DNA of 11,941 nt. It comes from Candidatus Delongbacteria bacterium. Its GTDB lineage: Bacteria; UBA4055. The stretch lies in the NCBI GenBank assembly GCA_016937995.1, contig JAFGVM010000099.1:1-11941 (forward strand), written 5' to 3'. The notes under the pieces were generated by a model. The model ran no database searches, was not told where the DNA came from, and saw only the letters and a program-made list of their open reading frames with translations. Shown here piece after piece: positions 2,903-11,786 of the stretch. The translations under genes were made by a program, and so were the position numbers. The first letter of the stretch is position 1. Each line of letters starts with the position of its first letter.

Positions 2903-3316
2903 TTACTCTCCCTTATACTTCAGCTCAACAATTCGATTCACTTCTTTGCTCAGACTGGCCGAAACGGGACATGTGTCAACAACATGCTGCAGTGCTCTTT
3001 TCTGCCTGTCAGTATAATCATTATGCGGAAAAGTTATAGTCATCCTGACCTCTGCAACTCTTCTGGGATTTGCAGACATGATCTTTTCTGTCTCTGCAAC
3101 AGTTCCGTCAATATTAAATCCCTGTGTCTGAGCAGCTATACCCATAATTGTCATGATACAAGCTGGCAAAGAAACTGCGAACAGATCCGTAGGTGAAAAG
3201 GCTTCTCCTTTCCCCTGATTGTCTGGTGGTGCATCTGTTATAAGTTTTAAACCTGAAAGGTGATGAATAGATTCGGTTCTTAAATTGCCTGTGTAAGTTG
3301 TAGTCATTTTACTCAT
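2903..3316 (-). CDS. OsmC/Ohr-family protein (thiol peroxidase-like)
   Basis: The 137-residue protein matches the OsmC family length and layout. GEAFSPTDLFAVSLPACIM (37-55) contains the first redox cysteine, Cys53. VDTCPVSASL (113-122) contains the second, Cys116. Family members reduce organic or fatty-acid hydroperoxides through this cysteine pair in the cytoplasm. The sequence looks more like the general OsmC/YhfA-type branch than classical Ohr, so the substrate is uncertain. ATG at 3316 is chosen because AAGGAG lies 10 nt upstream. An alternative ATG at 3307 (residue 4) lacks a well-spaced site. The gene heads a tight operon with the HExxH and C39-like genes. The four-helix-bundle cassette lies immediately upstream, so that cassette may have separated osmC from its original promoter or supplied a new one. 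Confidence 0.9.
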   Translation of the reverse strand: MSKMTTTYTGNLRTESIHHLSGLKLITDAPPDNQGKGEAFSPTDLFAVSLPACIMTIMGIAAQTQGFNIDGTVAETEKIMSANPRRVAEVRMTITFPHNDYTDRQKRALQHVVDTCPVSASLSKEVNRIVELKYKGE

Positions 3317-3339
3317 GTTTTACTAGCTCCTTAAATTGT

Positions 3340-3372
3340 TGGGTATGAGGTATGAAGTATGAGTTATGAGGT
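3340..3372. repeat. Left heptamer array, inverted relative to the array at 3766-3805
   Basis: It reads as TGG followed by tandem variants of a 7-bp unit: GTATGAG, GTATGAA, GTATGAG and TTATGAG, then GT. It ends one base before the four-helix-bundle stop codon. It is an inverted, imperfect counterpart of the right array. The outer TGGGTATGA and the inner TTATGAGGT boundary sequences are the best-matching parts. Confidence 0.85.
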
Positions 3373-3373
3373 G

Positions 3374-3727
3374 TTATTTAACTCGCTTTTTCTGTTTCAT
3401 GGTTAATATAGAAGATGAGAGCATTTTTCTTAGTTGTTGTAATTCTTTATTTACAGCTTCGTATTTTGATTTTGTAATATAATCCGTTCTATGCAATAAT
3501 ATTAGCCAGTATTCCGTTTCACCGGCTTCTTTTTGAGAAATGGCTAGTTTATGAATGAAGTCAGCATCACTTTCAGCATGCCTACTTTCTTTTATGTTTG
3601 CACCAATTGATGTTCCACTTCTTAATATTTGCTTTGATAACACAAACTCTTTCTTATCATATATCAGATATTTGTATAATTCAACAATATTAACAGCAAA
3701 ATCCAAACTTTTATCTTCAATAACCAT
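3374..3727 (-). CDS. Four-helix-bundle protein of the 23S rRNA intervening-sequence (S23/IVP) family
   Basis: The 117-residue protein is full length for this family. It shows the hallmark block SKQILRSGTSIGANIKESRH (31-50) followed by DFIHKLAISQKEAGETEYWL (56-75). Relatives are encoded within intervening sequences of 23S rRNA in Leptospira and Coxiella, or stand alone in many Bacteroidota genomes. They pack as four-helix bundles and form oligomers. The DGR accessory protein Avd has the same fold. The biochemical role is unknown, and basic surfaces suggest nucleic-acid binding. AGGAT lies about 7 nt before the start. The gene is tightly bounded by inverted heptamer arrays: one starts 1 bp past the stop and the other lies 38 bp before the start. 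It is a small cassette between DUF3010 and osmC. No reverse transcriptase or rRNA is present in the window. Confidence 0.92.
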   Translation of the reverse strand: MVIEDKSLDFAVNIVELYKYLIYDKKEFVLSKQILRSGTSIGANIKESRHAESDADFIHKLAISQKEAGETEYWLILLHRTDYITKSKYEAVNKELQQLRKMLSSSILTMKQKKRVK

Positions 3728-3765
3728 ATTTTATCCTATACTTTATCTTTTAATCTTTTGACTTT

Positions 3766-3805
3766 ACCTCATACCTCATAACTCATAACTCATACTTCAT
3801 ACCCA
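3766..3805. repeat. Right heptamer array flanking the four-helix-bundle gene
   Basis: On the minus strand it reads TGG, then GTATGAA, GTATGAG, TTATGAG, TTATGAG and GTATGAG, then GT. This is one unit longer than the left array and in opposite orientation to it. A minus-strand transcript of the cassette could pair both arrays into a long stem enclosing the ORF. One isolated related copy (AGGTATGAAG, minus strand) occurs outside at 3851-3860. Confidence 0.85.
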
Positions 3806-3807
3806 GA

Positions 3808-3839
3808 GAAGTCCTAGACTTCGATAAACTCAGTCTGAC
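3808..3839. repeat. Dispersed palindromic repeat (copy related to the one near 11753)
   Basis: GAAGTC-CTA-GACTTC at 3808-3822 is a perfect 6-bp-arm hairpin. It runs into GATAAACTCAGTCTGAC. The minus strand reads CTGAGTTTATCGAAG, which matches CTGAGTTTATCAAAG downstream of leuD with one change. It is non-coding and intergenic. Confidence 0.6.
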
Positions 3840-3860
3840 TTTTATCTTCACTTCATACCT

Positions 3861-3881
3861 GAAGAAATCTATGATTTCTTC
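3861..3881. repeat. Hairpin repeat overlapping the 3' end of the DUF3010-like gene
   Basis: GAAGAAATC (3861-3869) and GATTTCTTC (3873-3881) are perfect 9-bp arms around a 3-nt loop. The hairpin contains the TAG stop of the DUF3010-like gene at 3869-3871 and its last three sense codons. It lacks a U-tract, so it is not a typical intrinsic terminator, but it could protect the mRNA 3' end. Confidence 0.65.
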
Positions 3882-4288
3882 GACAAGTAATACGCCAGTT
3901 CAGCTGCCGAAACCTGATAACCGAACTTAGGAGTGAAAGGTAATTCATTCTTTTTTATGAAAGCTCTCAACGATTGAGGTGTTATAAAATCGATCTTCTG
4001 ATCAGGATATATTTGGATAAATCCTTCAAGTTTAAACGAGATTGGAGAAACTCTAAATTTTGCTTTAACACTTTTATTTCTGGTTAATATTCCGATCTTA
4101 TCGAACTGCATATTCTTGAAATACGAATGAACAATGTTCATAAATTCATGAACTTCTTCAGTACTTTCATCATCCCCCAGTTCTAACTTTTTCATATCCC
4201 CTGTAATGTCTGTCATAGCTCCGTCTTTTTCTTCTATTGCAAAAAAAACAGTAACATTAGCTTTGATCTCAATACCGAGTGTTTTCAT
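3869..4288 (-). CDS. DUF3010-like protein, probable RNase H/RuvC-like fold
   Basis: The 139-residue protein begins MKTLGIEIKANVTVFFAI, the strand-turn-strand opening of DUF3010 proteins (MxxxGIELKG...). It also carries LELGDDESTEEVHEF (35-49), SFKLEGFIQI (84-93) and DFITPQSLRAFIKKNELP (100-117), in the same order and spacing as the family. Length is as expected. The family has no established function. The opening with an acidic residue suggests a RuvC/RNase H-like topology, which I infer rather than see. There is no signal peptide. CGGAG lies 7 nt before the start. The gene follows mlaF by 155 bp, and that gap holds a mini-ORF and an inverted repeat. The C-terminal SKKS and stop codon fall inside a hairpin repeat, so the native C-terminus may have been modified. 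Confidence 0.62.
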   Translation of the reverse strand: MKTLGIEIKANVTVFFAIEEKDGAMTDITGDMKKLELGDDESTEEVHEFMNIVHSYFKNMQFDKIGILTRNKSVKAKFRVSPISFKLEGFIQIYPDQKIDFITPQSLRAFIKKNELPFTPKFGYQVSAAELAYYLSKKS

Positions 4289-11747: not shown

Positions 11748-11752
11748 ATAAA

Positions 11753-11786
11753 TTCAGTCTGAGTTTATCAAAGACTAAGTCTGAAT
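11753..11786. repeat. Imperfect palindromic repeat downstream of leuD, related to 3808-3839
   Basis: The ends TTCAGTCTGAGT and ACTAAGTCTGAA pair at 10 of 12 positions. The interior CTGAGTTTATCAAAG is shared with the minus strand of the repeat at 3808-3839, apart from one base. It lies between the leuD stop and the terminator. Confidence 0.55.

Follow-up and report, generated by a model that had tools for sequence, protein, structure and literature searches.

The window, by which we mean the whole 11,941-nt stretch of DNA analysed here, harbors a short gene of the 23S_rRNA_IVP / four helix bundle protein family (IVP, or S23p) that is set between two tandem arrays of a 7-bp unit in opposite orientation. 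The gene, its arrays (the 5' and 3' arms, in the orientation of the gene) and its neighbours are as follows.

2903–3316, minus strand: OsmC-like gene, the downstream neighbour, on the same strand as the IVP gene (PF02566, E=2.7e-13)
3340–3372, plus strand: 3' arm, four heptamer units, inverted with respect to the 5' arm (TRF; 22-nt complement)
3374–3727, minus strand: IVP gene, 117 aa (PF05635; TIGR02436; PDB relative 2RLD)
3728–3764, minus strand: spacer between the 5' arm and the start codon (from the sequence)
3765–3805, minus strand: 5' arm, five units, GTATGAA, GTATGAG, TTATGAG, TTATGAG and GTATGAG (TRF; inverted partner at 3340–3381; shuffles)
3807–3868, no strand assigned: REP-like hairpin segment with a further single heptamer (TTCATACC), adjoining the 5' arm (a dispersed repeat of the host genome)
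3869–4288, minus strand: DUF3010 gene, the upstream neighbour, on the same strand as the IVP gene (PF11215, E=1.5e-24)

In profile searches the IVP gene matches PF05635 at E=2.8e-30 and 105.1 bits (curated cut-off 33.8) and TIGR02436 at E=9e-34 and 116 bits (curated cut-off 24), and the PDB relative of its protein, 2RLD, is found at E=1.7e-39. TRF reports period 7 at 3342–3372 (GGTATGA, 4.4 copies) and at 3765–3803 (TACCTCA on the plus strand, 5.6 copies), in opposite orientations, and no further strong period-7 array is present in the window. In the register of their outer ends, the inverted-repeat arms (3340–3381 and 3764–3805) are 42 nt long and 83% complementary; a perfect 22-nt complement (3349–3370 with 3782–3803) lies one heptamer out of this register, and TGGGTATGA is present at both outer ends of the cassette. 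The flanks score 24 for the inverted match and 14.5 and 23.5 for left and right period-7 content, values reached in 0 of 2000 dinucleotide shuffles of both flanks, which gave maxima of 14, 11 and 10.5, respectively. The initial annotation had described a gene bounded by opposite arrays of four and five units, with exactly matching outer ends, between DUF3010 and osmC; all of this is borne out, and the span that it gave, 3339–3805, is right to one base. The cassette is 467 bp long, and the ORF list and profile search revealed no mobility gene in it other than IVP, neither a transposase nor a reverse transcriptase. There is no Rfam match in the window and the cassette does not lie in a 23S rRNA gene, yet it has the complementary ends and the enclosed S23p ORF by which an intervening sequence (IVS) is recognised.

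The host genome (2.75 Mb) contains six PF05635 matches, including the copy in the window. One of these, L006 (G000 C40), lacks heptamers; it is an Avd-like gene that adjoins a reverse transcriptase. The five non-Avd copies, among them the window copy, have inverted heptamer sequence on both sides, weakest at L003 and L004, with differing units: GTATGAR in the window and L003, GTTGTGR in L001, GGGRTTA in L004 and AAGTMAG in L005. Four of these five copies contain stops in the gene. In the congener G012, a Candidatus Delongbacteria MAG, orthologous places carry ACTATRA-type arms, so that at two places both arms have changed jointly from one species to the other. A search for further copies in the host and related genomes, as had been proposed at the outset, thus returned the same architecture in the four other non-Avd host copies and in the congener, and relatives keep the arrays with the gene rather than carrying the gene without them. 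No genome was found to contain several identical, recent copies of the cassette. At the site itself, G012 has two IVPs and DUF3010 between an HD hydrolase gene and osmC, and in G009 the HD hydrolase gene and osmC directly adjoin; DUF3010 is absent beside osmC in other genera, and the window position therefore offers no clean empty-site comparison. The gene order in G012 C1 (L041/L033) is HD hydrolase, IVP, DUF3010, IVP, OsmC, with DUF3010 flanked by two IVP cassettes as if carried between them.

The association of the gene family with such arms was followed in a genome scan of 80 loci from Bacteroidota, Cyanobacteria, Neomarinimicrobiota and others, of which 77–79 were testable. With flanks of equal length, matched inverted arms accompany 61 of 77 IVP genes but only 13 of 372 control ORFs in the same loci (Fisher 5e-47, the loci being phylogenetically non-independent). 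Period-7 arrays are found in 72% of the 5' and 65% of the 3' IVP flanks at the scan loci, against 5% of random windows; they are also found in 21% of the intergenic gaps elsewhere in the same loci, indicating that these genomes are generally array-rich. Only period 7, and its multiple 14, is enriched in the IVP flanks, periods 4–6 and 8–13 being at background. The two flanks match at a score of at least 12 in inverted orientation at 64 of 79 loci and in direct orientation at 20 of 79, the inverted score exceeding the direct one in 63 loci and the reverse applying in 12. Near-duplicate loci (e.g. L047/L048 and L052/L054) were kept in the period-7, inverted/direct and 61/77 counts, whereas exact duplicates were removed for the arm-matching comparison and the G-U/A-C mismatch counts given below. 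In an independent plasmid set, covering Cyanobacteriota, Spirochaetota, Bacillota, Chloroflexota and Bacteroidota, nine of nine IVPs have arms; a phage IVP (L310) has no arrays. Twenty Flavobacteriaceae loci picked by profile score alone show mostly imperfect heptamers, weaker than those of the scan set, so array strength varies; C-rich 5' arms or direct arrays are seen in several copies from cyanobacteria. The family is present in 113 of 149 Flavobacteriaceae genomes, and close IVP pairs have dN/dS values of 0.02–0.24, as expected for a gene that is in use and under purifying selection.

The heptamer unit varies between loci and species, yet the two arms of one copy agree. Over 75 loci the arm fit is 20.4 within a copy and 10.7 between copies (p<1e-4), and among 11 copies at one orthologous site it is 12.5 within a copy and 9.05 between species (p=0.0023). 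In sister plasmids with 3+3 and 4+4 units both arms have changed together. The unique units share only a weak common pattern, approximately ARTKRTN, with an information of 4.5 against 3.8 in shuffles. A single fixed unit for all copies was considered and rejected, exact (AATKRTR)x3 being present in only 18 of 149 Flavobacteriaceae, and no TAACTGA arrays were found in IVP loci. Similar proteins tend to have similar units (Mantel r=-0.44, p=0.0005; below 55% identity, r=-0.15, p=0.04), a correlation for which common descent, and not recognition, may be responsible.

Occupied and empty versions of several sites can be compared. At the fadB-fadA junction of Flavobacteriaceae, 11 of 30 loci have an IVP gene with arms, 18 lack the gene (with gaps of 4–124 nt) and one (L280) has another ORF; L278 and L291 retain facing heptamer arms although the gene is absent. 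Most of the fadB-fadA IVPs form one cluster in the tree, and the site therefore shows mainly inheritance and loss. The ORF in L280, between GGCGCAA/TTGCGCC palindromes, is a RAYT-like gene that matches NF047646 at E=1.9e-14 but falls below the cut-off of that profile. On Nostoc plasmids, L314, L315 and L316 have an intact gene for a C-5 cytosine methyltransferase, whereas in L309, L317 and L318 a cassette with CAATTCG arms interrupts it; this interruption represents one event common to the three plasmids. Here the cassette has replaced about 250 bp of the methyltransferase gene, its outer boundaries falling at the arrays; a CAATTCG in the intact gene lies close to the left boundary and is collinear with the first unit, and L318 has one unit fewer in each arm. 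A helicase-methyltransferase junction is occupied in L307, where the array, which begins within the final codons of the gene upstream, provides the stop of that gene, and was compared with L319/L320. No target-site duplication is apparent in the empty-site comparisons (Nostoc methyltransferase and L307 junction); target sequence was instead replaced in two insertions, which fits recombination as well as transposition. Plasmid cassettes are often located between genes of defence operons, namely drmD|MmeI, helicase|methylase, DUF1156|Swt1-HEPN and hsdS|hsdR (L304, L305, L307, L308, L311 and L312).

Heptamer arrays are also found without the gene. Their density is 7.7 period-7 arrays per 100 kb in the host against 0.4 in the IVP-less relative G008, and in Flavobacteriaceae there are 8 in 332 kb of IVP-rich genomes against 1 in 282 kb of IVP-less ones, both comparisons resting on small samples with no phylogenetic correction. 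The dispersed host arrays are for the most part single. Their units fit the IVP arms of some unrelated genomes at least as well as they fit those of the host itself. Long heptamer arrays (e.g. GAAGTAA) stand at contig ends in the host assembly (G000 C31:1-123, C73 end, C15 end); arrays probably break assemblies and are hence under-counted. The REP-like hairpin (CTTCGATNNACTCAGNCTGACTTTT), found in the window at 3807–3868 and 11749–11773, has 10 genome copies at up to 3 mismatches, against 0 of a reversed control, and two copies, both perfect, are near GTATGAR arrays. A 29-nt direct repeat (3794–3822 and 3850–3878) is located at the hairpin segment beside the cassette.

Across these genomes, an IVP gene with inverted heptamer arms is a recurrent unit that is present or absent at given sites and has landed at least once inside a gene. 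The 467-bp unit is, in our assessment, rather probably a small mobile DNA element, in which one IVP gene is furnished with inverted 7-bp tandem arrays as ends. As part of this mobile-element reading, and with like confidence, the window cassette would be the intergenic form of the S23p-carrying intervening sequences of 23S rRNA. The arms would constitute the ends of the element at the DNA level, and the substrate of the IVP protein may be these arms or nucleic acid copied from them. Arrays without a gene could have arisen by decay, or could be copies on which the protein acts in trans in the way that RAYTs act on REPs. The free-standing, IVS-like cassette of the initial annotation is thereby retained as regards the link between gene and arms and the occupied and empty sites, but not as an exclusive home of the arrays, which also occur without the gene. 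Similarly, of the picture that it had set against itself, arrays that are widespread, unlinked to the gene and free of empty-site polymorphism, only the first part is found: gene-less arrays are widespread, but the link is seen and empty sites exist.

Among the closest known systems is the 23S rRNA IVS with an S23p ORF, as found in Coxiella and Leptospira, which is alike in protein family, complementary ends and a length of about 430–470 bp (PMC4990558). The Coxiella IVS has 28-bp inverted ends and three tandem heptamers (GACAGAT) just before the S23p start, the number of which varies between strains (PMC4990558). In contrast, the window cassette lies between protein genes rather than in rRNA and has its ends formed by an array on either side; arrays and gene are seen here as one unit in many genomes. 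In open-access text, no paper other than PMC4990558 was found to link IVP genes with heptamer arrays. It was proposed some time ago that IVSs are mobile elements (cited in PMC4990558), and a tie between IVP and fixed DNA ends would make this older proposal directly testable.

A kinship with rRNA insertions also invites an explanation at the level of RNA, which we regard as unlikely: the arms would pair in a polycistronic transcript, RNase III would cut the stem and the IVP segment would be released as in 23S rRNA IVSs, and hence be tolerated in operons. When the transcript is folded, as was suggested initially, the arms do form a long stem (MFE -105.6, z -4.55), although any inverted repeat gives a strong one, and a tandem period of 7 nt is unnecessary for it. 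Upstream neighbours are co-directional at 69 of 70 IVP loci, against a background of 289 of 348 (83%), with both neighbours co-directional in 63, and 89% of loci have a G-rich 5' arm, which leaves orientation to the transcript largely fixed, the C-rich 5' arms and direct arrays of several cyanobacterial copies being at odds with this. The orientation bias suggests that transcription plays a part or that only sense insertions are tolerated, and the latter could by itself yield such a bias. In Coxiella, RNase III cleaves the IVS where the first heptamer starts (PMC4990558). RNA pairing should, however, give an excess of G-U over A-C, whereas the arm mismatches over 99 loci comprise 84 G-U and 95 A-C, counts that are compatible with cutting by RNase III but lend it no weight; transcript processing as the reason for the arms, which the initial annotation had offered, has therefore gained no support so far.

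Less probable again is that the arrays are passive, IVP genes merely lying in array-rich, relaxed intergenic sequence in which slippage and inverted-repeat gene conversion keep the arms alike. Array-bearing genomes do hold many heptamer arrays away from IVP genes, and copy number shifts by single units. Against this stand the excess of matched arms over control ORFs from the same loci (61/77 against 13/372), the near absence of arrays in the sampled IVP-less relatives, and the heptamers within the Coxiella rRNA IVS. It is highly improbable that the arrays are a translation device, in which a 7-nt unit (7 = 1 mod 3) with stop/start overlaps (ATGA, GTGA) would allow translation to terminate and restart in each frame, whatever gene lies upstream: the upstream gene is co-directional and overlaps occur in 52% of 5' arm units against 30% of shuffled units, but the excess is non-significant with unique 5' units only (364 of 3000 shuffles as high) and the inverted 3' arm is left unexplained.

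In some respects the mobile element favoured here mirrors the RAYT/REP(IN) system (PMC3116915, PMC8266576), in which one small gene is likewise found between inverted repeats. Related gene-less repeats in the same genome may be a further parallel, heptamer arrays being dispersed in the host but with units that match its own IVP arms no more closely than do those of some other genomes. The RAYT-like gene of one Flavobacteriaceae genome occupies the fadB-fadA junction that IVP cassettes fill in others. The IVP cassette differs in having no HUH (Y1) transposase and in having tandem heptamers, not single palindromes, as ends, and it differs from TIR transposons and MITEs in showing no target-site duplication in the empty-site comparison. 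Intergenic tandem heptamers are known from Cyanobacteria and Bacteroidetes as TAACTGA (PMC4679880) and GGGAATC (PMC4692102) repeats, and a term search of both papers returned no mention of S23, 23S or four-helix proteins. For the TAACTGA repeats, which MacGregor reported from Beggiatoaceae, Cyanobacteria and Bacteroidetes, no mechanism of spread was evident (PMC4679880), and IVP cassettes are a candidate source of such dispersed repeats. A broader proposal, which is conceivable but to which we incline less than to its opposite, is that IVP genes and heptamer arrays represent a bacteria-wide class of minimal selfish elements parallel to RAYT/REP, in which a four-helix-bundle protein moves or maintains the arrays with no classical transposase and of which many unexplained heptamer repeats of Bacteroidota and Cyanobacteria are products.

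The IVP/S23p family is widespread, and we know of no function for it. Its members are known mainly from rRNA insertions, and the cassette appears to behave like a small, largely unrecognised mobile DNA element across many phyla. This raises the question of by what means an Avd-related four-helix bundle protein could support mobility. Avd of the diversity-generating retroelements belongs to the same Pfam family and is also a four-helix bundle (PMC10053308), but no reverse transcriptase is found among the ORFs adjoining the window IVP gene, nor is there a template or variable repeat. Elsewhere in the host genome, the Avd-like gene of L006 is directly followed by a reverse transcriptase with a YMDD motif, likely a diversity-generating retroelement.
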